Part shown: one piece after another, positions 21,796 to 57,755 of the stretch
Layout: each line of letters starts with the position of its first letter
Position numbering within the stretch: the first letter of the stretch is position 1
Assembly (NCBI GenBank): GCA_021464245.1
Contig: JADCRB010000068.1
Location: 7,178,134-7,242,133 of the forward strand
Origin: Carallia brachiata
Taxonomy: Eukaryota > Streptophyta > Magnoliopsida > Malpighiales > Rhizophoraceae
Direction: 5' to 3'
DNA length: 64,000 nt
Notes under the pieces: model-generated
Seen by the model: only the letters and a program-made list of their open reading frames with translations
Told to the model about the DNA's origin: nothing
Databases searched by the model: none
Program-made: the position numbers and the translations under genes

Positions 21796-24700
21796 ATGTG
21801 GAGGCTTCCAACTTTCTCACTTCTAACCTTGTTATGCCTTCTTTCCTGTCATTTTCAGGCTCCAATTTTTGCTATAGAAAAGGTTAGCAATATTTGTGTT
21901 GAACATTTCGATGCCTTGTAAAACTACAATTACGTCTTTCAACGATTACTGCAAACAATCCCCTTGATTGCCATGGTTTTGAAATAAAAACAAGCACAAA
22001 GATTCTTCCTTTGGAATTTTTTAAATTGTGCCTTTCATTCACAAGTTCGTAATTTTCTTAATGATAAGACCAAAAACTATCACACAATTTTCTCACCATA
22101 TCTTATTGGATTTCTATTTCTCCGTCTCTCTCTATTTTTTTTTTCCAAATTAAACCTTAACATACACACTATAAGTAGCTCTCCTTTTTACTATAATTAT
22201 TGCTCCCAAATTCAAACTTAAGACCTCTTGTAATTCTATAGATTAATCCAACTTGAGACACATATCTTGGCAAATGACTTGAACAGAAGTTTCTTTCATG
22301 CAGTCTTACATAGTGTACATGGGATCACATGCACATGGCCCAGATCCTACGATGTCTGACATCGAGACCGCGTCAACTTCTCATTATGAATTACTGGGAT
22401 CAGTTTGCAAAAGGTTAGTTAGTTAGCATGTATGTTTCATATTTTCTTAATGTTGGATTCATTAATTGGATCATATCTTATTTGACACTAAACAATTTGT
22501 TCGTCGTATGCAATATAAAAATTTTTATAATAGCATAGAGAATGCTAAGGAGAAAATATTGTACTCTTATACCAAAAACATCAACGGCTTTGCTGCAATC
22601 CTTGAGGAGGCAGAAGCAGAAGAACTTGCAAGTATGCCCTATCTTAAATTTTGGTCAACAAATGCACAAAATCAACATTTTAATGTCGTTTTGTTATTTC
22701 AATAAATGTAGAGCATCCAAATGTGGTATCTGTTTTCTTGAACGAAGAAGTGGAGTTACAAACAACACACTCATGGAATTTTCTTGGATTAGAAAGAGAG
22801 AGTTACATACCTAAGTCCTCTCTTTGGAGAAGTGCAAAATTTGGTAAAGATGCAATCATTGGGAATATTGATACAGGTAAGGAGCATTGTCGTAATTTTT
22901 CAATTTGTTTGAAGTTTGTTGCGTATCAAATTTATTATACAATTCAATTCAAATTTAGTGGGAGAATTTAATTTGATTGCTTGGTATATATTTGTTTTAA
23001 AAGATAATTTACTTGATTTTGTTTGTTTAGAGGAGACACCTTTAAGTCGATAATTGATAAATTCAATTCTCATAATTTTTTTTTTTAGTATTACCAATTC
23101 TACCACTTAAGCATCTTTTTGGAGCGTCAAGATTCAATTGAATTATTTTACTTTTGCACTCTTACGCTATGTTGAGATAAAATTTTTTGGGGAGAGAAAA
23201 GTGAGGGAGGAAAGTGGGGGAGAGGATTATTGGAGAAGAGAGATATTTTTGATTATCTCTTATATTTGGAAAGAAATAATGGGAGAAATAAAAACTATCA
23301 ATTCTTCTGTGTGGCAAAAGGGTAGAAACTAAAAGAGAAGAAAATAAAATATATTAGAATAATAATTTTATTCTTAATAATAAATTTTATTTAAATGTTT
23401 CGTTTAAGATAAATTATAATTTCAAATTATATGAGGTAATTCAGTCATTTAATAAATTTAATAGGGGAACCAATAACTTTCCTCCCATTTTTTGGAGTGT
23501 TGATTTTAGTGGACTAAAGAGATTAGAAATTAAAAACTTTCTTTTCCCTACTTTTTAAACATTTTTAAATGTAATAATTTACCCTAATCCACTTACTTTC
23601 CTCTCTCTCTCTCCCTCTTTTCTCTCCTCCCAAGGATGTTAATGTCGAATATAGATTTAAGAGGAATTGAATTTTTATTGAATCCTTATTTTATAAGAAA
23701 GTTTATGGCATTTTCTCTCTCTCTTTCTCTCTCTATGTATATATAGGTGTTTGGCCAGATTCAAAGAGCTTCAGTGATGAAGGAGTAGGTCCAATTCCAT
23801 CAAGATGGCGAGGCTCTTGTCAAAAAGATAAAACACGGGTTCGCTGCAATCGGTATATTTCTTTCTTTCATTTTTTCTTCGTAAAGTAACCTACAAAACC
23901 TTATTAATTTTGAACAAACAAAAAGCCAAAAAATTATGTCACTTTACAACAAATAATCATCATCATCATTATTATTATTTCATTTTATTTATTTATTTAT
24001 TTATTTATTTGCTGAAGGCTCAATTAGCTCTTTTTTCCCTCTTTCGGTTTCTGAAAAAAACTTAATCTAGCAATCAATTTGGTTAAGAGTTAATATCTTG
24101 CCAAGTTATTTATTGATTCCCCTTTTTACTAATTTTTATTAATAACTAAACTTCATTATGATATTACCAGCATATTTAGTTGTAATTTATTTTGTTTATC
24201 CATTAATATTCCTCGTGGGGTCATAAATTGCAAAATGAGGATAGCTTTCTTTCTGTCATTAAAACATGAAATATTTTAAGTTTTTGTGTCTTAAGAGAGT
24301 TAGCTGTAAGTTGGAATTTCGTAAATTGTACTCGGAAAGTTAAATCGATGCAGAAGGTATAAAGATAATTGTCTAATGTCATAAACAATTGTTATAATAC
24401 AAATGCCCAGGAAGTTAATTTCGGCTAGGTACTTCAACAAAGCTGCTTTGGCTGAATTGGCTACATTGCATCTTAGTCCCGATTCTTCCTTTTACACGTC
24501 ACGTGACAACGACGGCCATGGAACGCACACCTTATCAACTGCAGGAGGTAACTAAACCATTTTACTTTTTGGTGAATGGTCTATGCTAGTTCAGGATTTA
24601 AATCCTTACGGTGCACTACCATATATATGGCTGGAAGCAGGGAATTTTGTTCCAGGAGCAAATATGTTTGGCCTTGGCAATGGAACTGCCAAGGGGGGAT

Positions 24701-26923
24701 CACCAAATGCTAGAGTAGCAGCTTACAAGGCATGCTGGCACTTGGGTCATTATGGCGTTAAATGTATGATTGCAGACGTTATGGCTGCTATGGATGTTGC
24801 AATATACGATGGGGTGGATGTCATCTCACTCTCTCTTGGTAGCAAGGTGCCTAGGCAATTCTATAGCGATGGCCAAGCTATTGCTGCCTTCCATGCTATT
24901 CAGAAAGGCATTGTTGTGGTTGCTTCTGGTGGTAACAGGGACCGACACCAGGGGAATTAGAGAATGTCACACCTTGGATGTTAACTGTTGGTGCTGCCAC
25001 AATTGATCGTCAATTTACATCCAATGTGGCACTGGGAAATGGAAAGCGACTGAATGTAATCAAGATTGTTGCTTTGTTGCCATATGAAAAAAATATTGCA
25101 CACTTTAAAGTCCATGGGTAGCGCTTTTTCTAGCAACATTCAACACTAAAGGAGTTATTGAGTTAATTTGCTGTCATTTTTTCTGTTACCAGGGAGTGAG
25201 CCTTTCAACTAATGGATTTGCAAAAAAAAATTCTATCCATTAATCACCGGTGAGAAAGCCAGCAATGATTCAGCTGAGGCTGAGAGTCCGTAAGTAACTG
25301 ATTTTATTGCTTTGTTTCTTTCTCTGTTTTTTTTTTTTTTTTTTGGAATAACCATCTATTGATCAATGTTAGTTTATGTTGCATCATAATTACCAAAAAA
25401 ATGATGCAGTCATATATGTGGACCTGGGACACTCGATCGGAAAAAGGTTAGAGGAAAAATATTAGTTTGCCCCAGTAATGAACTTGACAGAAGTGAATTA
25501 GAACTTGAGGCTTTGCGAGTTGGTGCTATCGGGATGATCGTAACAAATGATAAAGACGATCACAACAAAATCACAGCTTACCCATACAAGCTTCCAGCAG
25601 TAGACCTCAATCTCGCTGATAGTGAATTAACTGCTTACTACATCGAATCCACCAAGTAACTCTACATGAACTCTATCTTTTTCGGTAAATACATAAATTC
25701 TATGTCTCTGCCTAAGAATACATACATTTATAGGCATATGTTCACAATATGGGTCACCGAATATAGATAGGTACATTTATGTGCATATGCATGGCAGGAA
25801 TGCTGTTGCACGTATTGACGGCTCAAGGACATTTCTAAAGGCAAAACCAGCGCCAGCAGTACCAAGTTTCTCTTGCAGGGGTCCCAATCGTATGGATGAA
25901 TCAATTCTCAAGGTTAGCTTTTGATTATCAATTGTGATTTCATAAATAATATGTTATATATAATAATTTGATATGCTATGCACTGACAAATAAAATATGT
26001 TACATTTCTCACAGCCTGACATCATTGCTCCTGGGGTTAATATAATCGCTGCAAACAGTTTAGACTTAGGAGGGAAGAGTCAGAGTCCTTACACGTTCAA
26101 GAGTGGGACTTCAATGGCAGCTCCTCACGTCGCTGGTGTTGTTGGCCTTCTCAAATCAGTCCATCCAAATTGGAGTCCTGCTGCTATTCAATCTGCAATC
26201 ATAACAACTGGTATTAAAGATTGTTCATTGTGTGCTATTTTAAACAAGATTGAAAAAACAAATTACTTGTATAAACTATTAAGTGGGCAACCAAAGTGTT
26301 CTTTTCCCATGACTACACTAAACAACTTTTTTCTTTTTCTTTTTCTTTTTTTTTTTCATGCAGCAAGAACAACGGATAACAATAATCAGTCATTGCTTGA
26401 TTTAGCCAACAATCGCAAAGCAACTCCTTTTGCTCGTGGAGCAGGATATTTAAATCCAAGTGATGCAGCAGATCCCGGCTTGGTTTATGACTTAAAAGTG
26501 GATGACTACTTAAATTATTTATGTGCTCGTGGCTACAATCAGAGACAAATCAAATTGATTTTTTCTAAACCATACTCGTGTCCAAAGTCGTTAAGATTGG
26601 TGGACTTCAACTATCCTTCAATTACTGTTCCCAATCTCAACAACTCAATAATAGTCAAGCGAACAATTAAAAATGTTGGCTCTCCCAACACATATACTGT
26701 CCATGTTAAGGCACCAAAAGGAGTCAAAGTTTACGTAAAGCCTACAAGCTTGAAGTTTAAGAAAGTTGGGGAAGCAAAAGAGTTCCAAGTTACTATGAGA
26801 GTTGATAGCGAGAAACAACCAAACGGATATGTATTTGGAGAGCTAACATGGTATGATGGTAAACACCAAGTGACAAGCCCCTTGGTTGTGAAGCACGAGC
26901 ACCAGCAAGATGATGTGCAATAA
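21796..26923 (+). CDS. Subtilisin-like serine protease (S8 subtilase), 12 exons, two frameshifts
   Basis: Secreted plant subtilase. Exons read from splice sites: 21796-21882, 22304-22413, 22534-22631, 22712-22876, 23747-23852, 24411-24547, 24641-25055, 25193-25289, 25410-25655, 25798-25912, 26015-26210, 26364-26923. Exon 1 is a signal peptide (MWRLPTFSLLTLL then a small-residue end). Exons 2-4 hold the I9 propeptide (SYIVYMGSH, YSYTKNINGFAA). Catalytic residues are Asp in IIGNIDTG (exon 4), His in GHGTHT (exon 6) and Ser in SGTSMAAPHVAG (exon 11). Exons 9-10 carry the PA domain, and exon 12 the Fn3-like C-terminus starting near FNYPSITVPNL. The exons total 2332 bases, two short of a multiple of three. 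The two lesions are a missing base after 24936 (normally the GNEGP codons) and a slip in the A-run 25222-25230. With both allowed for, the length is about 777 residues, normal for the family. Either the gene is recently broken or these are assembly errors. Confidence 0.9.
23160..23645. repeat. MITE-like inverted repeat in subtilase intron 4
   Basis: Near 23190 the plus strand reads GGGGAGAGAAAAGTGAGGGA. Near 23600-23635 it reads CTCTCCCTCTTTTCTCTCCT. These form complementary purine/pyrimidine arms around an AT-rich middle. The arrangement is typical of a small non-autonomous DNA transposon inserted in an intron. I did not find the exact ends. Confidence 0.5.
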
Positions 26924-37245: not shown

Positions 37246-37459
37246 AAATAATAATTATTAAATTATAAAATAAAAATAATAAACAAATAATAAAATTTGG
37301 TAAAGATCAGTGGCTAGAGGAAGTGAGTCTTTATATAATGCTTTCTACAATTAAACTTATTCGATTTTTTGATGTGTTTGTTTTTGGGAAGCTAGTTTGG
37401 TCCCATTGAAGATATAAGTATGTAGTAAAGACACCATGTTAAATATTTGAAGGGTTTTA

Positions 37460-37640
37460 GGGTCTGTTTGTTGTGCGAAGGAAAAGGAGTGAGAGAAAGA
37501 AAAATATAATCATTACTATATACTTTTCTTTTTTATATTTCTTTCTTCTCACTTTATACACAACTCCAAACAATTTTATTTTCTCTTCACTTTTTCTCTC
37601 ACAAATTACTATTCATTTTTCTTTCACCATACTTTCTTTC
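37460..37640. mobile_element. PIF/Harbinger-like MITE, cut by the assembly gap
   Basis: It starts after a TTA with GGGTCTGTTTG, and its interior matches the reverse complement of the MITE at 45996-46362 (shared CACAAATTACTATTCA and TTTCTTTCACCATA). The right half is in the N gap. Confidence 0.6.
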
Positions 37641-38559: not shown

Positions 38560-40136
38560 TATTGTGATCCAGCCTGTATTTAGTGTTGTTGGTGGAAAAG
38601 GAAAAGAGACAAAAGTCTAGTTTGTAGACTTTGATGATCACCTTTAAGACTTTGGTGATATTTGATGGACTTTGGTGGTTGGTGGCCAACAAGGCCATGT
38701 GCTTCTTTTGAAATTAACCAACAACTAATTTTGGCTATTTGTATAATTGATCCCTATAAAAGGGATCAATTGGACACAAAGAAGGAGCATTGGTGCCATG
38801 TACCAATCAGTGGGAGAAGAGAGGTTTAGAGAGGGACTAAGAGCAGAGTTAGCTCTTTTGATTTTGAGTCTCGCACTTTCGTGTGTTGTGAGATTTGTGT
38901 AAATACAGTGAGTGTCTATTTGGATGTATTGGACTTTTGGGTATTGTGAGCCTTTTGTGACACACTGTAATTCTTTATTTGTATGGTTAATGAAATTCTT
39001 GTCTGTCTATTTGGATGTATCGGACTTTTGGGTATTGTGAGCCTTTTGTGACACACTGTAATTCTTTATTTGTATGGTTAATGAAATTCTTGTCCGTCTT
39101 CGCCCGTGGACGTAGGCTTTAAACCGAACCACGTTATATTTGCGTGTCTATTTTTCTTTTCCCTACACTTCTATATTTTTGTTGGTGTTCACTTCCACAC
39201 TTCCGCTGTCCAACAGTGGTATTAGAGTTGAGGTTCTGTTTTGAGCAGTTCAGGTATGACATCAACAAAATTTGTTATCAAGTTTGGTTGCAAAATCAGT
39301 TTTTGTCACCGTCAAGTTGTTCTTGACTAAACTGATTTGCTTTGTTTGGGAAAAAGGAAATATTGATTTGTGATAAAAAAAGAAAATCCTCACTTGGATA
39401 TCCCATCTCAATTTGGAGAAGACTTCGTTGAAGGAAATTTTGTTTTGTTATTACATCACTTGACTCTCAGTTGTATTTAGAAAGCGCCCATTCTAGTTTT
39501 GAGGGGGAGCTTGTAGCTGGTTTGGAGAAGCCAATGATGATGCTCGTTTCTCTGTAAATACAGTCTGGAGGGGGAAAATGTTGTGATCCAGCCTGTATTT
39601 GACGTTGTTGGTAGAAAAGGAAAAGAGGCAAAAGTCCAGTTTGTAGACTTTGATGATCACCTTTAGGACTTTAGTGATATTTGGTGGACTTTAGTGGCTT
39701 GGTGGCCAACAAGGTCATGTGCTTCTTTTAAAATTAACCAACAATTAATTTTGACCATTTGTATAATTGATCTCTATAAAAGGAATCAATTGGAGGTAGA
39801 GAAGGGGCAATGGTGCCATGTACCAATCAGTAGGATAAGAGAGGTTTAGAGAGGGACTAAGAGCAAAGTTAGCTCTTTTGGTTTTGAGTCCCGCATTCTC
39901 ATGTGTTGTGAGGTTTGCTCAAGTACAGTGAGTGTCTATGTGGGTGTATCGGCCTTTTGGATATTGTGAGCCTTTTATGAGATGCTGTAATTCTTTATTT
40001 GCTTAGTTAATGAAATTCTTGTCCGTCTACGCCCGTGAATATAAACTTTAAACCGAATCACGTTATATTTGTGTGTCTATTTTTCTTTTCCCTACACTTC
40101 TATATTTTTGTTGGTGTTCGCTTCCGCTGCCCAACA
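38560..40136 (+). mobile_element. Non-autonomous Ty1/copia-type LTR element (TRIM/LARD-like) with TSD
   Basis: The 5' LTR (38560-39215) and 3' LTR (39579-40136) enclose only 363 bases. The target duplication ATATC is perfect (38555-38559 and 40137-40141). Just inside the 5' LTR, TGGTATTAGAG (39217-39227) matches the methionine-tRNA primer-binding site TGGTATCAGAG with one change. Just before the 3' LTR is a polypurine tract GGAGGGGGAAAA (39568-39578). A TATAAAAGG box lies at 38755 in the 5' LTR. No protein is encoded, so mobilisation would depend on another element. The first two bases of the 5' LTR read TA where the 3' LTR has TG. Confidence 0.92.
38914..39095 (+). repeat. 91-bp tandem duplication inside the 5' LTR only
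   Basis: A segment starting GTCTATTTGGATGTAT occurs at 38914 and again at 39005. The 3' LTR has it once, which accounts for nearly all of the 98-base length difference between the LTRs. The duplication therefore arose after insertion, or was acquired unequally during reverse transcription. Confidence 0.85.
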
Positions 40137-40524
40137 ATATCAAATAATATATGTTGAAACAACAAAAAATTCATTTTTCTTTGAAAAGATTTCTTAAAAA
40201 AGTCAACCAAGTTTTACTAAAAATGGAACTAGTAGTATTTTACAATAAAAATCCGGTCCAAGTTTCCTGGTGCACAATTTCGGTGCACAATCTTTATTGT
40301 AAATTAATCGCTAAGGCAACAACCTAAGTGGATGTGGAGTGTGATTCCAATGGTACACAATGCTGCAATTCATAATCGGAGATATCCCTAATTAGTTCTA
40401 GAATAGATTATATATGAAGGAAATTTAAGGTCATTCTTAGAATTTTGGTTTTGTTTGGAGGAAAAAAAAAAGAATTTTGGCCCTTTAAAAATTAGACTGG
40501 TCAAAGTTTCCGAAATAAAAGAAG
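40137..40524. other. Spacer between two LTR elements
   Basis: AT-rich with no gene. ACCAG at 40525-40529 is the left target duplication of the next element. Confidence 0.5.
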
Positions 40525-40529
40525 ACCAG

Positions 40530-41428
40530 TGTAACGAGTAAATTTCGAGCCTATAACAGTTAGACTCGAAAATACAAAAACAAATTACAGAAAAAAAAAA
40601 TTTAAAATTTATGCGGGTTCGATCTCTGGGTAGATCCTCCGATTAATGCTCCAGTGTAATTTAGTCAAGGGCCGTGAAAGCTTAATCTTGACCGAGAGAT
40701 GTTGAATTTCCACAGCGTGAACTTGAACTACAGGAAATGGATTCCACTGAGGGCCGAGGCTTGATTTCAAGTGGATTAGTTGAACTCCGGTGAGAGCCGT
40801 AGGAGGATTGATCCCACTCGGACTGGATGGACTTCGGTGAGGGCTATAAGAGGCTTGATCCCACTTGAATTGATTGGACTCCGGTGAGGGCTGTAAGAGG
40901 CTTGATTCCACTCGAACTGGATGGACTCCGGTGAGAGCCGTAGGAGGCTTGATCCCACTTGGATATTTAAGATTTTAATATCTTGGATTTTTGATCTAGC
41001 GGATCCATTTCAATGGCAGTTAGAGAGCATACACCCAAAATATTTAGAGAAAGAAAGAAAGAATGCAAAACTTTAGAAGAGAGGATTTTGCTTTGCATGG
41101 GATAGATTGAAAGGTTTTGAGGGGATGCCTATTTATAGGGTTGGGGGAGGATGGATGCCAAAATTGTATGATTTGGATCATACATGGTAAGGGCCCTTTT
41201 TGGTGGTTGAATTTTGACATTTTGCAATCAAATAGAAATTAAAATTTCCATATGATTCATCATGGGTAGGATACTACATGGCAAGGGCCCTCTTTGGTGG
41301 TTGGATTTTGACATTTTGCATGGTCACCAACCATATAAAAATCATCATTTTCATATGCATGTACTTGTTGCTTTCATGTATGGCATGCATTGAATTTTTT
41401 TTTTTGTGATTTTTTTTTTGTGTTTACA
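40530..41428 (-). repeat. 3' LTR of the WOX-bearing element
   Basis: Matches 44685-45581 along its whole length with scattered substitutions. It contains about four to five tandem units of roughly 57 bases (40785-40960) sharing GACTCCGGTGAGGGCC and GAGGCTTGATCCCACT. The 100-codon ORF in it is only this repeat read through. Confidence 0.9.
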
Positions 41429-41607
41429 AATTCCCCCACTTCAAGGCTTGGTAAGGAAAGGCTTTGCAGACGTGATCCGTACCGAGTCTTGAAATCCAGG
41501 TTGAAACTTGAGATGTTCTGATGAACATTGAACGTTGAAGTCTTCTGACTCTGACTATGTCTACTGTTGTTGGATCGCAATAGGAATCCGATACGATCTT
41601 GAGAAAG

Positions 41608-42093
41608 TTAGCAGCCCAGCCAATATAAAAAATTGACATTCTGGCTCCAGGTGCGGTCGAGCTTCCATAGCTCGCAAAGACTGGCAAAAGTTTTTTGAAG
41701 TTCCAAAGCTCTGGTGAGGATGATCCGGTAGGCAAAGAACTTGAACCTCCCCAAGAGGAAGGTCCAGCACTTTGGAACTTCAAGACCTGCACACAGAGAG
41801 ACTGATTGTAGTGATGACTCCCGAGTCTGCTCCGACATAAGGAGAGTAGTTGGAACTTCCCTGTACGTCGTCACATCTAAAGGAAGATTAGGATGATTGC
41901 AGCGTCTCATCCCTCTGTGGTAGATGTGAACTAAGGAGAGTAGTTGGAACTCCATTACACCGATGGCGTTAGAGACTGAGTATTGAGGGCTTTTAGGGAT
42001 CCTTCGGGGAAGACTACTCCTTCTTTTTTTAGCTCGTGCGCCTCCCACTTCTTGATCAAAGAACTTCCTGAGACTAGTGTAGACACTAGTCAT
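41608..42093 (-). CDS. Unrecognised ORF inside the retrotransposon, with its own TATA box
   Basis: A 161-codon ORF starting at an ATG that follows a C/T-rich leader (about 42094-42120) and a TATATATATA box (42151-42160) placed 58 bases upstream. The N-terminus MTSVYTSLRKFFDQEVGGAR is followed by a basic KKRRSSLPRRIPK segment that could act as a nuclear localisation signal. The C-terminal half is rich in Leu, Phe and Trp. I recognise no domain. It lies downstream of the WOX region on the same strand, before the polypurine tract. It could be a second captured gene fragment, a lineage-specific ORF of the parent element, or chance. A second frame is open at 41424-41792. Confidence 0.35.
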   Translation of the reverse strand: MTSVYTSLRKFFDQEVGGARAKKRRSSLPRRIPKSPQYSVSNAIGVMEFQLLSLVHIYHRGMRRCNHPNLPLDVTTYREVPTTLLMSEQTRESSLQSVSLCAGLEVPKCWTFLLGRFKFFAYRIILTRALELQKTFASLCELWKLDRTWSQNVNFLYWLGC

Positions 42094-42262
42094 TTTCTTT
42101 TGAGAAGAAGAAGAGCTGAGGGGTGAGTATTATGGCTCGGATATGCAGGATATATATATAACATAAAGGGTTTTTTTTTTTGAAAAGTCAAAAAGGAGGT
42201 ACGCAGAATCGAGTAGAGTCATCCACGTCCCTTTCTGCATAAGAGACAAAAGAGGCAACGGC

Positions 42263-42330
42263 TGACGCGCGTCACGAAAGTCGTTATCGTGTGTTGCAGA
42301 AGTCGTTGTCGTGTGCTGCAGAAGTCGTTG
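42263..42330. promoter_or_regulatory. TGACG palindrome and 22-bp direct repeats upstream of the second ORF
   Basis: A perfect 12-base palindrome TGACGCGCGTCA (42263-42274) contains two TGACG cores, the binding motif of TGA-type bZIP factors in as-1-like elements. It is next to two 22-base direct repeats (42279-42300 and 42301-42322) sharing AGTCGTT.TCGTGTG.TGCAGA. Together with the TATA box at 42151 this is laid out like a compact promoter for the minus-strand ORF starting at 42093. Its function is inferred. Confidence 0.4.
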
Positions 42331-42342
42331 CACCTTATCTTG

Positions 42343-42969
42343 TCAGCCGTCCTGGCGGGGCCCGAGGCGCAGCTCCAAGTCAAGCTCAGCCTCGTCTGGT
42401 GGGCCGATGATGTTGACGTCGCTGGAGCCTTCCAGCTGGTTGATGCTGCTAGAATATTCTGGAAAGAGAGGCAAATTTTTGTCGGAATGACTTCTTTCTG
42501 CTAGAAAAGTCTCTCATAAACTTAAGTACTTGGAAGGAATGAACCCTTGACTGACTCCATAAGACCACCAGGACCAGTACGCATGCTCCCACAGGCTACT
42601 ACTTTGATCGTTATAGCCTGAAGAGACCATTGCAGTGGTAGAACTCGGACCAGCTTCATTTGAGGGCGAAGCTATACTGGTGTGATCTACCATCGGAACG
42701 GCTGACTGTGCTTTGGAAAAAGCAGTTCCCAGTGCTGGTTTCTTCCTACTTCTCCGATTCTAGAACCAATAAAACACATTTTTTCCTTCGATTGCCCCGA
42801 GCGAGCGCAATCGTGAGACAAGTTGGTAAATCTGAGATGCATTAGGAATAATACCTCCATTGTTGTGGAAGACTTCCTCTAAAATTTTCAGTTGTGCCAT
42901 GGTTGGTTGCCACCTTATGCGGGGTGACTTTTCTTCGCCCTTGTCTTGAGGTTCTGCAACTGGTTCCAT
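42343..42969 (-). pseudogene. WUSCHEL-related homeobox (WOX) coding region captured by an LTR retrotransposon
   Basis: An intronless reading frame of 208 codons runs from ATG at 42969 to TGA at 42343. The N-terminal homeodomain (about residues 16-75) contains RIRWQPTMAQLKILEEVF, then SRLRSLGAIEGKNVFYWF and NRRSRKKP. The IEGKNVFYWF-x-N signature is diagnostic of plant WOX transcription factors. Further on are NLPLFPEY, resembling the WUS box (TLPLFP), and near the C-terminus ELDLELRLGP, an LxLxL EAR-type repression motif. The order and spacing match a short complete WOX protein. Two in-frame stops interrupt it: TAG (42760-42762) where helix 3 should have the Gln of WFQN, and TGA (42514-42516). 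Both are explained by C-to-T change (CAG, CGA). The downstream frame stays open to the EAR motif. A TATA box lies about 90 bases upstream. Its strand is that of the element. Confidence 0.85.
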
Positions 42970-43056
42970 CTTTCGTGTGGCAGAGGAGCAAAGGTCTGGT
43001 ATGTGGTGAAGATCGGTTGAGACTGATGCTGAGTTTCAGACTCAAACCCTCCGTCG

Positions 43057-43064
43057 CTTTTATA
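43057..43064 (-). promoter_or_regulatory. TATA box of the captured WOX region
   Basis: The minus strand reads AAATATAAAAGCGACGG here. TATAAAAG lies about 90 bases before the WOX ATG, at promoter distance. Confidence 0.5.
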
Positions 43065-43202
43065 TTTTTGGGCCGTTCACAGTTTATACTCATGCGGGCC
43101 AGGAGTTGGTTTGCTGGATTGTTGAGTGTTTGGATTTTGTGTTTGGGCTTTGACTTTTGCTTGGGCTTTCAGATCGAGATTTCTGATTTTTTTTTTTTTT
43201 TT

Positions 43203-43565
43203 GCTATTGGGCTGTTCACAGTTTATACTCGTGCGGGCTAAGAGTCTAGTTTGCTAGATTGTTCGCCTTTTATACTCGTGCGGAGCAGGAGTGCGTTGTA
43301 GAGCTGTTCGCCTTTTATACTCGTGCGAGGCAGGAGTGCTGAACTGTATTGCATTGATTATCGCCTTTTATACTCGTGCGAGATAGGAGTGCTGCTGTTG
43401 ATCGCATTTTATACTCGTGCGAGGCAGGAGTGCTGAATTTGATCGCCTTTTATACTCGTGCGAGGCAGGAGTGCTGAACTGTTGATCACCTTTTATACTC
43501 GTGCGAGGTAAGAGTGCTGAACTGTTGATCGCCTTTTATACTCGTGCGAGGCAGGAGTGCGTTGT
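43203..43565 (-). repeat. Tandem array whose units each carry a TATAAAAGGCG core
   Basis: Seven close copies plus one or two diverged ones of a 41-54-base unit. On the plus strand each contains TTTTATACTCGTGCGAGGCA or a close variant, followed by GGAGTGCTGAACTG. On the minus strand each unit reads CTCGCACGAGTATAAAAGGC, so every unit repeats a perfect TATA-box string and a short palindromic CTCGCACGAG. A looser copy (TTTATACTCATGCGGGCC) lies at about 43080-43105. The array sits directly upstream of the WOX region. Confidence 0.85.
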
Positions 43566-43568
43566 TGG

Positions 43569-43790
43569 AATGCTGTTGAGCTATTAACATGTTGAGCTGG
43601 TGAGCTGTTTGGCTATTGAGCTGCTGAGCCGGAGAGTTGGTGAGCTACTGAACTGTTGAGCTGTTGAGCTACTGAGCCAGAGAGTTGGTGAGCTGTTGAG
43701 CTGTTGAGCTGCTGAGTCGGAGAGTTGGTGAGCTGCTGAGTTGTTTGGTGAGCTATTGAGCTGGTAAGCTGCTGAGTTGCTGACTTGGAT
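43569..43790. repeat. GAGCTG-rich tandem repeat
   Basis: A higher-order repeat of roughly 60-70 bases, built from TTGAGCTG/CTGAGC words and punctuated by GGAGAGTTGGTGAGCTG. It is part of the retrotransposon interior. Confidence 0.8.
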
Positions 43791-43794
43791 TCTG

Positions 43795-44240
43795 ATTCAG
43801 GGTTTAAGGTTTGCCCCCGAATCTGGATTTAGACTTTGAGTTGGAACTTGGATTTGGGCTTTGAGCCCGGGTTTAGATTTGGTGAATTTGGGCTTTAGGC
43901 TGGGGTTTGAGTTTAGGTTTTTTGGGCGTGGATTTGAATTTGGGCTTTAGGCCCGAATTTGAATTTGGATTTGGATTTTGAACTAGAATTTGGGTTCGGG
44001 CTTGGATTTTGCCCCCGAATTTGGATTTGTTGGGTTTTGAATCGGGGTTTGAGATCTGCCCCCGAATCTAGATTTGGATTTTGAGGAAAGGTTCTGAACT
44101 TGCACATAAGTTTCAGATATTTTTTTTTCTTTTTTTTTCCTCTTTTTTTTGGCTTCTTTTTTCATGCTTTTTTTTGTACTTTCTTTTTCTTTTTATTTCC
44201 TTTTTTATTTTTCTCTTTTTTTGTTTTTTTTTTTTTTTTT
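43795..44240. repeat. TTTGG/GGGCTT degenerate repeat and T-rich tract
   Basis: 43795-44100 is a degenerate repeat of words such as GAATTTGGATTTGGG and GGCTTTGAG. 44118-44244 is a nearly pure T/C tract. On the minus strand these read as Lys/Ser/Pro/Asn-rich frames with several stops. I do not call a gene. Confidence 0.7.
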
Positions 44241-44245
44241 TTTTA

Positions 44246-44420
44246 CACAGTAAATTTTAGAAGTTTACCATTTGATCGAACCAGGTCGGGATGCGTTGAC
44301 AGCATGCAAGCGTAATTGACGTAGACTTCTTGAACCATGTATAGCCCGTCCCAGTTGGAAGTGAACTTGTCGTAGAGTCGGTGCTTGTGTCCCTCTACTG
44401 GTCCAGTTGGATGAGAACTG
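44246..44420 (-). pseudogene. Ty3/gypsy integrase C-terminal remnant
   Basis: The minus strand reads YDKFTSNWDGLYMVQEVYVN and then NGKLLKFTV. This matches the end of plant gypsy integrases (K-F-x-x-N-W-x-G-P-Y-x-V...NGK-x-LK). In a complete element this lies at the 3' end of pol, yet here it sits only about 320 bases from the 5' LTR. The upstream gag-pol has therefore been deleted, leaving the post-pol region that carries the WOX sequence. Confidence 0.65.
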
Positions 44421-44684
44421 TGTCCATGCACGAGTTTGCAAACCTACGTACTCAAGTAGGATGATTAATGCAAGCGATTGAGCAATCGTCCTTTTACTGG
44501 TGGTGATAGTCATGTTCATCTTTAGTGCCACCGATGCGCTGGATTCCTGCCCTCTAGAGTTGTGTTGGTGTTGGCCATTTTACGGCCCATAGGCCATGAA
44601 ATGGCCGTTGTGCCACCAATTTTTTTTTTTTCTAAGGAGCAAAAGATGGGAGGTAGAGATGTCCCACCGAGCGTACCAAAAATT

Positions 44685-45581
44685 TATAACGGGTAAATTT
44701 CGAGCCTATAACAGTTAGACTCGAATATACAAAAACAAATTACAGAAAAAAAATTTAAAATTTATGCTGGTTCGATCTCTGGGTAGATCCTCCGATTAAT
44801 GCTCCTGTGTAATTTAGTCAAGGGCCGTGAAGGCTTAATCTTGACCGAGAGATGTTTAATTTTCACAGCGTGAACTTGAACTGCAGGAAATGGATCCCAC
44901 TGAGGGCCGAGGCTTGATCTCAAGTGGATTAGTTGAACTTCAGTGAGGGCCGTAGGAGGCTTGATCCCACTTGGACTGGATGGACTTCGGTGAGGGCCAT
45001 AAGAGGCTTGACCCAACTCGAATTGATTGGACTCCGGTGAGGGCCGTAAGAGGCTTGATCTCACTCGAACTAGATGGACTCCGGTGAGGGCCGTAGGAGG
45101 TTTGATCCCACTCGGATATTTAAGATTTTAACATTTTGAATTTTTGATCTAGCGGATCCAACTCAGTGGCAGTTAGAGAGGATACATCCAAAATATTTAG
45201 AGAGAGAGAGAAAGAATGCAAAGCTTTAGAAGAGAGGATTTTGCTTTGTATGGGATGGATTGAAAGGCTTTGAGGGGATGCCTATTTATAGGGTTGGGGG
45301 AGGATGGATGCAAAAATTGTATGATTTGGATCATACATGGCAAGGGCCCTTTTTGGTGGTTGAATTTTGACATTTTGCATTCAAATGGAAATTAAAATTT
45401 CCCTATGATTCATCATGAGTAGGATACTACATGGCAAGGACTCTCTTTGGTGGTTGGATTTTGACATTTTGCATGGTCACCAACCATATAAAAATCATCA
45501 TTTTCATATGCATGCACTTGTTGCTTTCATGTACGGCATGCATTGAATTTTTTTTTTTGTGATTTTTTTTTTATGTTTACA
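44685..45581 (-). repeat. 5' LTR of the WOX-bearing element
   Basis: Read on the minus strand this is the upstream LTR. It contains TATAAATA at 45283-45290, so transcription would start near 45255 and run into the element. The same 57-base tandem units as in the other LTR lie at about 44940-45115. Confidence 0.9.
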
Positions 45582-45586
45582 ACCAG

Positions 45587-45995: not shown

Positions 45996-46362
45996 GGGTA
46001 TGTTTGAAGTGAGAGGAAGGGTGAGGAACGAAGGGGAAAGAGAAAGAAAGTATAGAGGAAGAAAGTATAGAGAAAATAAAGTTATTTGGAGTGGTGGAGA
46101 AAATGAGAGAAAGGAAGTATGGTGAAAAAAAAATGAATAGTAATTTGTGATAAAAAAGTGGTAGTTGTAAAAAATGAAGAGAAAGGAAATATGGTGAAAG
46201 AAAAAGTGAATAGTAATTTGTGAGAAAGAAAATTGAGAGAAAATAAAGTTATTTGGAGTGATGTAAAAAGTAAAGAGAAAGAAATGTGAAAAAGAAAAGT
46301 AGAAAGTAATAATTATATTTTTTTTTCTCTTCTTCCTTTTCTCTCCCACTCCAAATACACCC
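45996..46362. mobile_element. PIF/Harbinger-like MITE
   Basis: The left end GGGTATGTTTGAAGTGAGAG pairs with the right end, which in reverse complement reads GGGTGTATTTGGAGTGGGAG. TTA flanks both sides (45993-45995 and 46363-46365). The 367-bp interior is purine-rich on the plus strand, with repeated GAAAGTATAGAG words. The 133-codon minus-strand ORF here is only the pyrimidine-rich strand of the MITE. It shares its family with 37460-37640. Confidence 0.75.
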
Positions 46363-46554
46363 TTAGGGAAATCGGCATGGAAAGATTGCTGCATGTCTTA
46401 TAAAGCAACCTAAATATATATCAAACATTATATAAATAAAGAGTGCCCGTACATACCCTAAGTTTTTTGTCTCGGAAAATGTTCTGAACAAAATTATAAT
46501 TGTTATTTTTAAAATATCGACTAATAATTTTGAAATATAAAATTAATCAATGTT

Positions 46555-50827: not shown

Positions 50828-50885
50828 GTAAGAGCCATTGGCCACCAAAGTCATCCGACAGAAGCAAAAATTACTTTGTGTTGTT

Positions 50886-53800
50886 ATGGCTTCTTCTTCT
50901 TCTTCTTCTTCTTCTTCGGCTGATTTTCCTACTTCCTTTTATTGTTCTCCTAATTCTATGTCTGCGCAGGTTCATCCAAGAAAGCATCTGGCATTCATTA
51001 ACTTCAGGGGAAAGGACACTCGTGAAGGCTTTGTGAGCTTTCTCTATGAAAAGTTGGAGCAACAAGGGATCCGTGCTTACTTGGATAGCGTAGAGCTTGA
51101 GAAAGGAGCAGACATCGATACAATCATAGACGCAATTCAAGACTCCAATATTGCGGTCGTTGTTTTCTCTAAAGAATATGCCACTTCTTCTTTTTGTTTG
51201 GATGAGCTTGTCAAGATTATGGAATGTAGGAAAACTACTGGATTGCAGGTATATGATCACTCTAATAATGATCTTAGTCTGATTTTCAATCTCAAATATG
51301 CAAGCAATTTCGTGAGTTGTTTATGAACTTATTAAAGGTGTTTTAATTTTACATTGCCTTCTGATTGGATTCAATTCCAAACAGGTTTTGGTTGTGTTCT
51401 ACCGTCTAACACCCGAAAATGTAGAAAACTTGGAAGATGAAGAAGATTTAGAAAACCCAAATAAGAGTTTTGCTGCCCCGAAGAATGTTGCCTCTATAGC
51501 AGGATGGGATAACGCTTCAAAGGACATCAGGTGATTACGTTTTTTTTTTTTTCTGTACCCTGTTGACATGTTCTTTAAAGATAAAATTTAACTCAATTCA
51601 AATTCAATTAATGAATTAATCTATTGGTTTGTTTGGTATAAACAATATAAATTTTAAGATGAAAGAAAGAAACAAAGTAAGATAAAACACCTACAATCCT
51701 TGGCCTTGATAAAAAAAAAAAAATGATGAGAATAAATGTTGCTAATGATGTCCACATAATATAGTTGATGCTAAGGCAAGATGGTTATTTAAAATTTGTA
51801 ATCAATAATTAATAAAATTAATTAAACCAAATATTATGCTTGTGAATTTGGTAAATTCTTTTTGGATGTTGGAATTCATAGACATTGAATTTACCTTCAC
51901 TCGAGTTACAGTCATCTTCTGCAAGTATGGTTTTCTCAAGGAATTAGGAATAAACTAGTTTTTTTTTTTTTTACTCTGCCGATTTATGTATTTTAATTTT
52001 CTTAAAAAATAATAATAATGAAATAATAAAATATATCTTCTTAGATGTCACATAACAATATTTTAGCTCCAATATACCAATAATAAAAATATTCCAACTT
52101 AAGCATGAATAAAAAATGTAATTTAGAATGGCAGCAATTACAATGACATTTTACTAAACAGTAATTGAATAATAAGTTACACTTACTTAAAAATGTGAGT
52201 CAAAAGAAATCTTTCAAGATTTTTTAGAATTTTCTGGCCTTCTAGATTTCCTTGAATCTAAAAGATGCTTTTCTATTATATCTCATAGAACCTCAACCGA
52301 TTGTATTTAGACATCCAGTAAGAAAGCGGTCTAAAGTTAAGAGAAGTCTTCCCATTATTCAATGGTGTAGCTGTTTATTATACATAACGCTTCAGTCTAA
52401 GATGTCATTAAAAATAATTTTACAATATGTGAAGTCGATATGATTCAAAACAATAAACAGACATGATATGAACTAAATAAACAAAAAATAGTATCAATAG
52501 AATTATCCGATACATATTTATAATTGTGACATCACTTGGAATGACTGCAAAATTTTAACAATTGAAGGAGAAGAAGATGATGATGGGGGATAGCCGAGGG
52601 CATAATGAAGACTTGAGGTGCTTCCTTTAAATTTCACAATAGCAATACACCTTTGAGCATCCATTGCTTGTTACCTTCTTAAATCATTGAGCCCTCTCGA
52701 ATTATTGAACGACTCTAAAGTTTTTCATCCATGCATGTGAAGGGAAAAAAAGAGTTAGCAGAGATTTTTTAGAGAAGACAAACAGTTTGGAAAATAAAGA
52801 ATAGAAATTTTTTTTTTAAATGTCAAATATAATTAAATAATGTCTTCCTTCACCATTAGGCAGTTCTTCACTTATCTATCTATGAGTTTGGTCGGTATAA
52901 ATCTCTAAAAATTAAAATAAAAGAAAAGCAGATTAAGAAAAAACACCTCCAATCCGTGGCCTTGACAAAGAAAAAAAAAAAAGGATGAGCAAAAAAAAAC
53001 AAAAAAATGAAGCTAATGATGTGCACATAATATTTGATGCTAAGGCAAGACTTATTGAAATTTATAATCAATAATTAATATAATTAACTATACCAAATAT
53101 TCGCATGTGAATTTGGTGGATTCTTTTTTGATCTGGAATTTCATAGAAATGAAATTTGCCCCAATAGTTTATCACTCGAGTTACAGTCATCTCCTGCATG
53201 TATGATTTTCCGTATTGAATTAGGAATGCAAATGACTACATTTGATGTTTCTCTATTCACATAAATCAACTTTTTTTTTCTATGTGCATTCAACATTTAA
53301 ATTTCTGAATTTATTAGTGGCACATATTCATATTGTATTTGCAACTTATCTTAATGCTTGTTTCTTTCAACTCAAGCTTACCAATATTCGTTCTTCCTGT
53401 TAATCGTTACGAACGAGGCTGATCTTGCTAATAAAATTGTGGAAGACATTTTGGAAAAACGAATGCGCATATATTTCCCAGTTGATTTGAAAACTCTGGT
53501 TGGCATGCCTCGGCGAGTAGAAGACATTGAATCACTGCTTTTTAGTGGGAAAGTAAATGATGTTCGTATTGTCGGAATATGGGGGATGGGAGGAATTGGC
53601 AAGACAACTCTTGCCAGAGCCATATTTGCAAACACTCTTTCCATTTTCAAAGCAGATGCTTTCTTGAAAATGTCAGGGCAGATTCAGAAAAACGTGGATT
53701 GCGCGAGCTTGAAGATAAACTTCTTGCTGTTCTACTGAATAGAGCCAATAAGAGTATGCGCACATCCAGCTCAAGTTCAAATTTTCATTGGACCAACTTC

Positions 53801-56800
53801 GGCATAAAAAGGTTCTCATTGTTCTTGATGATGTAGATAAGTTTGAACAAATCGAATATTTAGCAGGAAAGCGTGAATGTTTTGGTGAGGGGAATAGAGT
53901 TATTATTACAAGTAGAAATAGACAAGTGCTTAAAAATGGAGTTGACAGCCAATATGAAGTTAAACCACTAGATGTCGGTATAGCTCTTGAGCTTTTTAGT
54001 ATACATGCCTTTAAGCAAACGTATCCCCCTGCAGACCATGTGGAATCATCCAACAGTGTTGTAAAGCATGCCAGAGGCCTTCCTTTGGCACTTAAAGTTC
54101 TTGGGTTGTTTCTGCATGATAGGAGCGACGAAGAATGGGACAGCGCACTGGTTGAACTTCAAAATACTCTCAACAAGGAAATAGAGGATGTGCTGAAAAT
54201 AAGCTACGATGGACTTGATACTAGCGCCAAAGAAATACTTCTTCATATTGCTTGTTTCTTCAGAGGGAGCCAAAAACTGATGTTGAGAGAATACTTGACT
54301 CTTGTGATTTTGCTACAAAATCGGACTTAAGCAACTTGTTGATAAGGCTTAATTGTCATCTCAATTTCAACGTAGAGATGCATGATTTATTACAAAAACT
54401 GGGTCGAGAAATTGTTAGGCAAGAATCATTAAAGAGCCTAACAAACGTATAGATTGTGGAATCTAAAGTATGTCATGTACTAAAAAAAAATAAGTAAGAA
54501 TCCAACAACTAACTTTTTTTATTCTTTGTTCTTTCCTGCCTTGAGTTGAACGGCATTTTTTTTTTTTTTTTTTTATTTTTTAATTATCTGCATAAGTTGT
54601 GCTAATATGATTAGTGGCCATGGTTTTAGGGGACAGAAGCAATTGATGGCATTTCGTTTGACTTGTCCAAGTCGGGGATTTGTGTTCGCATGTCTCCAAC
54701 TGTCTTTTCAAAGATGGATCAAATTAAATTGCTTAGGATTTATTCTTCGTCCAGAGATTTTCTATTTGATGATGTCGTGGACTGCTCACGGGGACTTGAG
54801 TCTCTTCCACGTGAGCTAAGGTATCTGGAGTGGGATTGCTATCCTTTGAAAGCATTGCCGCCAAATGTTTATTTTGAGAACCTGGTTGAACTTCACATGC
54901 CCCACAGCAACGTCGAACGACTTTGGACTGGAAAACAGGTAAAAGTTTATTTATTTATCTTCTTTGTTCTTTACATTGAAAAGATGCACTAGGGAATGAT
55001 CTACGAGATTAAATTTACTGCGTCGACAGCTTATAACTAAAACATTGATATTTTTGAATGGATTATAGAAAACTAATCATACGAGAAGCACACATGAAAT
55101 GCATGCATGAGAAATGCCAATTTTCGTTTTCCTATGTTGTGTCCATTATTTGATGCAGAGAGAATTTGATAGTTGATTTTTCACACGTTGAACATTTTCA
55201 CACAAACTCTCTCCCCCCTACTGGAATAATTTACCTTTGGTGTTTAAACAATTAATTTTAAACCGATCATCGATTGGTTAATATAATACACTTACTATTT
55301 GAATTATAGCTCCTTTCTCAATTTCATAAGAAGGTTAATTTCATGAGTGTTTATTAAATTTACTCTCATTTTTAGTAAGTAAAACTAACTCGTGATCTAA
55401 TACCATTCAAAAATTATTTTTAATTTTTTATTCAAGTGAACCTCACTTATTTTGTGGTATAAAATTATAAATAAGTTACACTCACTTAAAAAAAAAATCA
55501 AAATAGAAATTCTCAAATTTTTTTTTTATGTATTGATTTTTTGTTTTTTAATGGCAACCTAGCTTTGTTGTATTTTATTTAACGGGAAAATATAACATTT
55601 TTCTCATAGAAGTTCTCCGAAACATCTAACACCTTCCGCCTGGTTGCCCTTGTTAGCATCGTGAATATACTACTTGGATAGTTGGTATTCTGCCGCTGGT
55701 CAGGTTTCCTGGTGGTGGAGCTATCAGACTGTTATTTTATGGTCAGGTCTAGGTGAACCTAAGGAATAATGCGCGTGAGAGGCCTATAAAAGTAATTTCA
55801 CATCTTTTAAATGCCTTTGTACCAAGTAGTTTTTCCAAAATAAATAAAAATAAAATGATATTCGTGATATCCACACTTTAATAATGTCCATCACTTTATC
55901 TCCCCAATTCCATGTCAATATCGTTATTTCCTTGTCTGTTTTTCCATGTAAACAATTTTTCCCTTTCACTCCTATGGTGTTTATATTGAACAATCAAGCA
56001 CATGATCAAGGTATGGTTTTTGGGGTATTTCTTAACAGTTGCATCCATCTTAGATTTCAAATTAAATTTTTAGCTAAATTTTTGGAGTTTAAACTCCTTT
56101 GCTAAACACATTTTTTCTTGAATGCAGTTTTTTCTTTTTTCCTAATATTCCTGATTTTGCACACGCATGTGTTTAATTTTTATTGGCACAGTAATATTGA
56201 TAGGTACACAGATTCTAAAAGCTAGCATTTTCGTTGCTTTTTTCTTCGTATAGAATCTTTCAAGCTTGAGAGTGATAAGGCTGACTACGTGCCTTCAGCT
56301 CATCGAAATGCCGGACTTCTCAAGAGCCTTGAACCTTGAGATCATTAGTTTTAGAAATTGTCAAAGGTTGTTGGAGGTTTCTTCATCCATTAAATATCTC
56401 AAAAACCTCAAGGAATTGGATGTGGGAGGGTGTCTTAAAATCAAGAGTGTTCCAAGCACCAAAGGTCTGCAATCTCTTACAAAACTTATCCTCGATTCTT
56501 GCTCAATTGGGGAGTTATCAGAAGTATCAGAGAGCATAGAAGTGTTAGATCTGTCTGGTACTAAGATAAAAGAAGTACCCATTTGTTCTAAGCTGAGATC
56601 TCTTCGAAAACTTAGACTAACTGCCTGCTCAAGTCTCCAGAAATTTCCCGAACTTCCAACCAGTGTGGAAGAGCTAAATTTAGGCAGTTGTGATATAATT
56701 GTGCCCCATAACTTGATTGAGCGCCTCTCTCGACTTCAAAAACTTGATATTTCTCTTTGGAAGGGACCTGGGAATATACTGGGAGTTGATCTTGGTCGAT

Positions 56801-57755
56801 TGTCATTATTACGGGAATTGAACCTAAGCCACAGTGATTTTGAATACATACCTGACAGCATCAAGCATCTCTCGTGTCTTGAAAGTCTCGGCGTTGCTTG
56901 CTGCCCTCGGCTTCGATCACTGCCACAGCTTCCCCCTCATTTAATAGATTTGAATGCAAATTTTTGCACATCACTGGAGATGATAACGGAGTCAAGATTT
57001 GCACTTATGGAAACCTCGGGAAAGTTGCTAGATTTCAACGTAAATTTTTCATTTGTGGATTGCCGTCAATTGAATGAGAATGCACGCGGAAACATTTTGA
57101 ATTATGCACAGCAGATCATACCACTTTTTGCCCGAGAAGCCCTTTATCAACTCCCCAAGGTACCGGCAATCCCTTAATATCAACGTCCTACCTTACAGAT
57201 GTTATTATATCGAACAAGTTACTCTTAACTAAGATATTTTCTTATCGTAAGCTGCAGAGTGTGGGTAGGAAAGATGAAGTTCGATTTGTTTATCCTGGAA
57301 ATGAAGTTCCAAATTGGATCAATCTTCAAAGCACAGGATCTTCGATTATTGTGGAACTGCCTCCAAATTGGTGTGACGGTAAAAACTTTTTGGGTTTTGT
57401 TATTTGCGTTGTTTTTGACAAAGCCGTGCGGTGGTCGCCATCTGTGCATTTGCTTTGTGAATGCAATTTTGAGTCCAATGATGCCGCAAGAAATCTAAAG
57501 TTAGTTGTGGACCTCATGGGCGAAAGCGGGGAACACGTCTTGCTTTGGTATAGTAGCAGCTTGCACCAGGCAGTAGTTAGTAGCTTAGGGGACGAAGACT
57601 ATTACAAGAAGGCCACATTTCACTTCTATCAAGAAAACTATGGCTATCCAGACGTGGAGGACGATTCAGAATTTTCTTCTGATTCAGACGTGGAGTGTGA
57701 TCACGTGGTGACAAACTGTGGGGTTCGGTTGCTACATATTGGTGACTGGGAATAA
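50886..57755 (+). CDS. TIR-NBS-LRR immune receptor (TNL) with C-JID, NB-ARC exon frameshifted
   Basis: Intracellular immune receptor. Exons: 50886-51248 (TIR: HLAFINFRGKDTREGF, SSFCLDELVKI with the NADase Glu), 51385-51530 (TIR end, GWDNASKDI), about 53411-54492 (NB-ARC), 54630-54938, 56254-57159 (LRR), 57258-57755 (C-JID: DEVRFVYPGNEVPNWI). NB-ARC motifs: P-loop GIWGMGGIGKTTLARAIF, kinase-2 KKVLIVLDDVD, RNBS-B GNRVIITSRNRQVL, GLPL ARGLPLALKVLG, MHD EMHDLL (54375-54392). Exons 1, 2, 4, 5 and 6 are open and in phase. The NB-ARC exon shifts frame near 53661, 53757-53775 and 54265, has compensating shifts at 54341-54372, and breaks again after 54428. Its expected acceptor reads AC, not AG (53409-53410). 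TNLs recognise effectors and signal through TIR NADase and EDS1. As written, no full product can be made, so it is a pseudogene or carries assembly errors. Confidence 0.88.
51620..53233 (+). repeat. Duplicated segment inside TNL intron 2
   Basis: 51620-51955 and 52888-53233 are diverged direct copies. Both contain CCTTGGCCTTGA/CGTGGCCTTGACA, GCTAATGATGT.CACATAATA, TGATGCTAAGGCAAGA, ATCAATAATTAATA and CACTCGAGTTACAGTCATC. They bracket about 930 bases of other sequence and make this intron about 1.9 kb, long for a TNL intron. Confidence 0.7.
54939..56253. other. TNL intron 4
   Basis: 1.3 kb between the exon ending at GGAAAACAG and the LRR exon that begins after CGTATAG. I see no extra exon or transposon ends inside it. 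Confidence 0.6.

Follow-up and report, generated by a model that had tools for sequence, protein, structure and literature searches.

The window analyzed here, the whole stretch of 64,000 nucleotides from Carallia brachiata, holds a 5.05-kb LTR element on its minus strand (40530-45581), with the 5-bp target duplication ACCAG on both flanks. The two LTRs (40530-41428 and 44685-45581) are 94% identical, with a K2P distance of 0.063 (42 transitions and 12 transversions), which we take to mean an age of about 2-5 million years at plant rates. Since a primer-binding site lies by the LTR at 45 kb and a polypurine tract by the LTR at 41 kb, the element reads along the minus strand, as does the WUSCHEL-type homeobox (WOX) frame inside it. 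An earlier sequence-only reading had described an intronless WOX frame, with homeodomain, NLPLFP and an EAR-like end, on the strand of an element with intact LTRs and a 5-bp duplication; the frame coordinates proved exact, Pfam and PDB returned the expected matches, and the LTRs, the duplication and the orientation were confirmed. The internal region measures 3.26 kb and contains several tandem-repeat arrays and a single recognizable gene, the WOX frame. The features of the element are as follows.

40525..40529, no strand: target-site duplication ACCAG, left copy (sequence)
40530..41428, minus: 3' LTR in element sense (TGTAAACA...GTTACA), 94% identity to 44685-45581
41429..41445, minus: polypurine tract (CTTGAAGTGGGGGAATT, element sense); similar tracts in L014, L015, L025, L026 and L074
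41446..42342, minus: 3' internal region beyond WOX, with ORF fragments; median identity 87-88% in 20 fetched copies
42343..42969, minus: WUSCHEL-type ORF, 208 codons plus stop, intronless, 2 premature stops in the window copy
42736..42915, minus: homeodomain, codons 19-78, with TAG at 42760-42762 inside (Pfam, PDB, structure model)
42514..42516, minus: second premature stop, TGA
42460..42477, minus: WUS box, NLPLFP in the window copy
42361..42384, minus: EAR-like motif LDLELRLG
42970..43069, minus: conserved leader and TATA region ahead of the ATG, TATAAAA at 43058-43064; median identity 95% in 20 fetched copies
43211..43560, minus: tandem repeats of 43-53-bp units, most with GAGTATAAAA in sense; unit amplified in short members
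43593..43776, minus: second tandem-repeat array, 8-bp and 40-48-bp units
44660..44678, minus: primer-binding site (TGGTACGCTCGGTGGGACA, element sense)
44685..45581, minus: 5' LTR in element sense; TATAAATA near LTR nucleotide 291
45582..45586, no strand: target-site duplication ACCAG, right copy (sequence)

Comparison of the seven internal ORFs other than WOX with Pfam (E up to 1) gave no match, and neither gag nor pol, including a pol with reverse transcriptase (RT) and RNase H, was found in the window copy; the ORF fragments 3' of WOX likewise had no homology in Pfam. Several other features were observed in the window. A second, small LTR-like pair adjoins the WOX element at 38562-40140 (about 0.6 kb each, 89-91% identity, about 0.4 kb apart, with a PPT-like GGAGGGGGAAAA) and is probably a TRIM-type element. 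The element region is flanked by purine-rich, MITE-like inverted repeats (37459-37620 and 46202-46363) that are 81% complementary. Pieces of a resistance gene or pseudogene (TIR, NB-ARC, LRR and C-JID) lie on the plus strand at 50832-57755, and positions 22502-26923 hold an SBT5-type subtilase, perhaps a pseudogene, with at most 54% identity among the 120 matches listed of 6665.

The WOX frame runs on the minus strand from an ATG at 42969 to a terminal TGA at 42343-42345, with internal stops at 42760-42762 (TAG) and 42514-42516 (TGA), and comprises M, homeodomain, serine-rich middle, LPLFP, acidic stretch and LDLELRLG in one reading frame. Its homeodomain matched Pfam PF00046 (E 3.7e-10) and, in PDB, WUSCHEL (best match, E 3.6e-17) and STENOFOLIA (6.5e-15); E values so low place the match far beyond chance. 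A homeodomain of WOX type was also recovered from open copies, without read-through. The structure model of the read-through protein (mean pLDDT 58.6) was confident over the homeodomain only, with a pLDDT of about 90 over most of it; the nearest solved folds were WUS-HD, and STENOFOLIA was among the ten matches at E up to 0.001. In a protein search with the frame, the best 120 listed of 3090 matches were WUS/WOX-type homeodomain proteins, none of them above 54% identity, and a search of 5.8 billion proteins returned three at E up to 1e-3, all named WUS/WOX or homeobox. Against 119 WUS homeodomains taken from the listed protein matches, the frame reached at most 53% identity, compared with a median of 87% among those homeodomains themselves; it keeps 20 of their 31 invariant columns and has lost 11, one of which is the stop. 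When neutral decay to about 52% homeodomain identity was simulated, 5.2 stops arose on average, and at most one stop was left in 2.7% of runs. A scan of IMG/VR for WOX gave two stretches that fit a pattern, neither of which encodes a relative.

We searched the 337.5-Mb host genome with the WOX DNA, the grape WUS protein and the LTR. The WOX DNA returned 41 matches, 40 of which, counting the window's own, cover 617 bp or more of the 627 bp with 91-100% identity; this copy count is a lower bound, since 40 of 1222 first-look candidates were scored. The grape WUS protein gave 138 matches: 10 are host WUS/WOX exons, and 125 of the other 128, spread over 63 contigs, are element-like, a class assigned by match start and checked in sequence for fetched copies. 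Among these 125, 67 lie in open frames of at least 220 codons, in a search that favors open frames. The LTR search yielded 54 matches, 40 of 1817 candidates being scored. WOX was present in all six further paired members that were picked by their LTRs and absent from the WOX DNA list; four of them carry it without large gaps at 85-88% identity (one being 9 bp short at the fetched edge), and two share one WOX-internal deletion of about 150 bp. The latter two (L071 and L073, on contigs C128 and C102) are short members whose common deletion lies within and beyond the homeodomain, and they are perhaps a subgroup amplified with a broken WOX. Target duplications could be read with standard LTR ends at three loci, the window and two with TGTAAA/GTTACA ends, and all three differ; a scripted duplication search gave none at six of the eight other LTR-paired loci. 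The sequence-only reading had foreseen a parent element that carries WOX between pol and the 3' LTR and may spread it, and had proposed checking whether other insertions hold an open WOX. It had also named its own refutation, a host gene nested by chance in one element. The parent element and the open copies were found, with pol upstream and 39 further near-full-length copies scored, and the refutation failed.

To describe the family, 20 copies of about 9.9 kb each were fetched and the window was added, giving 21 loci. Both LTRs, or parts of them, are visible in nine loci including the window, some pairs being incomplete: four short loci of about 4.6-5.3 kb (L011, L014, L016 and the window) and five long ones of about 8.2-8.7 kb. 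Fourteen of the 21 loci contain a reverse-transcriptase segment 400 bp or longer; the seven that lack it are the four short ones, L012, L025 and L018, the last containing 4286 N. In L010 the order is RT (E 7.7e-35), RNase H, PF13456, integrase, WOX and then an LTR-like match, and in a younger copy it is integrase, TATA box, open WOX and PPT; WOX thus stands between pol and the 3' LTR, in sense. PF13456 follows RT_RNaseH in L010 and in L024, an arrangement with a second RNase H that may point to the Tat lineage. A PBS-like site follows the 5' LTR, judged by eye, in all nine loci showing both LTRs, and a PPT was found in the window and five other loci. For gag, we obtained one weak gag-protease match, below the cut-off (L025, E 6e-4), from the ORFs of a few loci, many 5' ends lying beyond the fetched stretches. 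Across the family, the features of a Ty3/gypsy element were found: an LTR pair with TG...CA ends and 5-bp duplication, a PBS and a PPT, and, in L010, RT/RNase H before integrase.

The 100 bp before the ATG were the best conserved of the seven segments compared, with a median best-match identity of 95%, against 92% for WOX, 87-88% for the 3' region and 73% for the LTR, the last over about a quarter of the LTR length. TATAAAA stands 95 bp ahead of the ATG in the window and at -95 in a younger copy, and all 22 loci (the 21 and the younger copy) have it no more than 100 bp upstream. Based on this arrangement, WOX may be transcribed from its own promoter. Beside the leader, the unit GAGTATAAA occurs 6-9 times per 650 bp in L011, L014, L016 and the window, and once in the other 17 loci. 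The TATA-bearing unit is tandemly amplified, in sense and upstream of WOX, in the short loci only (window 43211-43560; L011, L014, L016). TGAA tandems, TAAT, G-box and TTAATGG were not enriched in the LTR or the internal region, which speaks against self-regulation through canonical WUS sites; a mild excess of TGAA alone was seen in the 650 bp ahead of the ATG, where tandem repeats make up part of the sequence (9 occurrences, 4.5 expected; 11 of 300 shuffles).

The WOX copies fall into two subfamilies. The older set comprises the 40 copies nearest the window's, at 88-98% pairwise identity; in four of them the frame stays open from the ATG over 200 codons or more. The younger set of eight copies, which were chosen for open frames, has a median identity of 98% (lowest 92%) and stands at 82-83% DNA identity to the window copy. 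Recurrent stops are seen at codon 70 (7 of the 40 older copies) and at codon 152 (11 of the 40). The WUS box reads TLPLFP in 28 of the 40 older copies and in seven of the eight younger ones, the window's NLPLFP departing to the letter from TLxLFP, and the EAR-like LDLELRLGP is found in 26 of 40 older copies, with variants in the others. The residues described as contacting or anchoring DNA in WUS are R38, W39, K82, N83, Y86, Q89, N90 and R94, as given in the part of the structural paper used here (PMC7203112). Among the 40 older copies, K82, N83 and N90 are kept in all, Y86 in 39, R38 in 37, W39 in 36, R94 in 35 and Q89 in 31, Q89 being lost in nine copies, seven times by stops; all eight residues are kept in 8 of 8 younger copies. 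Both subfamilies thus retain the homeodomain contacts, the WUS box and the EAR motif.

We then estimated selection by NG86 dN/dS. Among the 40 older copies the value was 0.498 (0.38-0.64), an interval that overlaps the five control frames (0.57-0.70), and between subfamilies it was 0.436 (0.30-0.64; control frames 0.56-1.12). This second comparison gave 0.162 (0.07-0.49) for the homeodomain and 0.538 (0.37-0.82) outside it; the homeodomain control frames gave 0.75, 1.89, 0.80, 0.21 and 1.95, the low one, nearly as low as the true frame, being antisense 1, in which the wobble positions may line up with those of the true frame. Among the eight younger copies the value was uninformative, 0.59 (0.25-1.81). 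RT in 14 copies gave 0.195 (0.11-0.33), and WOX in the same 14 copies gave 0.498. We read these values as pointing to moderate constraint on WOX, weaker than on RT and strongest in the homeodomain. The shared stops and the shared deletion imply either movement of broken forms or a repeated origin of identical changes; if broken forms did move, as they seem to have done, the WOX product would not be needed in cis.

Regarding the origin of the gene, the host has two WUS genes (L048 and L049), which are 77-79% matches to grape WUS and whose homeodomain cores differ at 2 of 60 residues. In the host WUS on contig C90, the homeodomain match lies about 0.8 kb from the WUS-box/EAR match, in separate exons, and the element copy has no such split; this missing intron favors capture from a spliced transcript. 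The element homeodomain core has 60 residues and aligns with WUS without gaps, while the seven other host WOX compared have 59; an extra residue at the end of helix 1 (Y54) is ascribed to WUS proper in the structural paper, as far as its consulted text goes (PMC7203112). A 24-row homeodomain tree gathered the element rows into one group (support 83/91) on a very long stem, of 2.5 changes per column. This WOX phylogeny, proposed at the outset for finding the donor, placed the group among modern-clade WOX, not joined to WUS. Host WUS/WOX genes match the element homeodomain at 26-33 of 60 residues; raw identity is highest with C113b (33 of 60, with three gaps; WUS 31). The longest exact DNA run between the 48 element copies and ten host WOX exon matches reaches 17 nt with the two WUS homeodomain exons; with the remaining eight it is 11-13 nt. 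WUS as the source is favored by the added helix-1 residue, by alignment score and by these exact runs; the raw identity count speaks against it. Insertion of WOX into the element with a target duplication of its own was rejected, the flanks sharing a 7-bp match only.

Taken together, we consider, with a probability of roughly 60%, that the window holds a short, pol-less member of a Ty3/gypsy family in which a WUSCHEL-type gene, acquired long ago, persists as a resident accessory gene whose product aids the element. The family would have taken the gene up through a spliced transcript, and its place between pol and the 3' LTR is the same in long members as in short ones. WOX would be transcribed from its own TATA-bearing promoter, and the predicted product would be a nuclear DNA-binding repressor that helps the element, for example through lowered activity of host genes or through an action in meristem or germline cells. 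Provided in trans, it would allow transposition to continue in members that lack pol or whose WOX is broken. The dozens of open copies suggest that the element makes use of a borrowed stem-cell regulator; a strict need for WOX is counted against by its constraint, weaker than that of RT, and by broken copies that seem to have moved. Plant transposons must reach germline cells, and these derive from the shoot meristem, which is maintained by WUSCHEL. A more specific version, which we find unlikely as it stands, is that the repressor, derived from WUS and expressed from a promoter of its own, maintains cells in a meristematic or germline-bound state or marks them as such, or else shuts down defense genes in those cells; new insertions would thereby be passed to offspring, and a single source would supply members with and without pol.

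A passive passenger is a possible but doubtful alternative: a WUS transcript captured once would have spread only inside a successful element and decayed slowly without a role. The weaker constraint on WOX than on RT, the broken forms that seem amplified, the 36 of 40 near copies that are not open by the test of at least 200 codons and the overlap of the within-set dN/dS interval with control frames would all fit such a passenger. It accounts less well for the element-like matches in open frames (67 of 125, the search favoring such frames), for the homeodomain dN/dS of 0.16 between subfamilies, for two stops in the window copy when the neutral simulation gives 5.2 on average and younger copies are open, and for a leader better conserved than its surroundings. 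That the WOX segment acts as RNA, through small RNAs or decoys on host WUS-clade genes, is very improbable: the high copy number would suit it, but with no exact run above 17 nt to the ten host WOX exon matches small RNAs against host WUS look unlikely, and the conserved features include protein-level ones. We give equally little credit to a recent capture of a divergent host WOX gene. With no more than 54% identity among the best 120 listed of 3090 matches there is room for an unlisted divergent donor; nevertheless, the host WUS/WOX genes found are ordinary and match few homeodomain residues, the element rows share a long stem, and the younger copies are already 17-18% off the window copy. 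Chance nesting of a host WOX between LTRs, for which nothing speaks beyond the single window copy, is ruled out by the many copies, the different target duplications and the presence of WOX in 6 of 6 LTR-picked members.

The preferred reading, a resident accessory gene that helps its element, has partial precedents. Additional ORFs in this place and host-type domains in gypsy elements are already known in the sources consulted, and for a WOX-carrying retrotransposon or any homeodomain cargo, of which the sequence-only reading knew no described case, none was found in the open-licence literature searched, which is a part of the whole literature. Since it lies in a repeat, such a WOX is readily overlooked when genes are annotated. 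The dozens of open copies of a WUS-type regulator make it possible to test directly whether elements influence cell fate to secure their own transmission, and they suggest that a master regulator can persist and evolve apart from the genes of the host. With WUSCHEL itself, as described in the portion of the structural paper at hand, the element WOX shares the 60-residue homeodomain core, the DNA-contact residues, the WUS box and the EAR motif (PMC7203112); it differs in that about half of the homeodomain is changed, with five recognition-helix positions going from H, K, A, E and R in WUSCHEL to R, R, S, K and K, and in being intronless and shorter.

Plant LTR retrotransposons are known to carry sense additional ORFs between pol and the 3' LTR, termed aORF-3S in the review sections drawn on here (PMC7264820). 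These have the position, sense orientation and presence across family copies of the WOX element; they are env-like in those sections, whereas the element's frame encodes a WUS-type homeodomain transcription factor. Host-type domains occur in gypsy elements as LONELY GUY (YgdH) in Citrus, B3 in Aegilops tauschii and AlkB/2-ODD in Phalaenopsis, according to the accessible part of that survey (PMC9289625), and, as with WOX, a host-type developmental or regulatory domain is fixed in a gypsy lineage. Section 12 of the survey names no homeodomain, and homeobox, homeodomain, WUSCHEL and PF00046 are absent from its main text; because its screen was keyed to reverse transcriptase, it would have overlooked elements lacking pol, such as the window copy. 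The gene23 of maize Grande is an accessory gene located between pol and the 3' LTR; it has a promoter of its own and codes for a nuclear protein (PMC7264820, sections consulted). It resembles WOX in place and kind but is antisense and has no clear similarity to other proteins. Finally, maize Bs1 and the LTR-captured genes of rice and sorghum hold host gene sequence inside an LTR element, as here, in the text available from both sources (PMC7264820; PMC3726574). Additional ORFs explained by transduction are described there as confined to one or few copies (PMC7264820); the WOX element instead exists in many copies, among long and short members.
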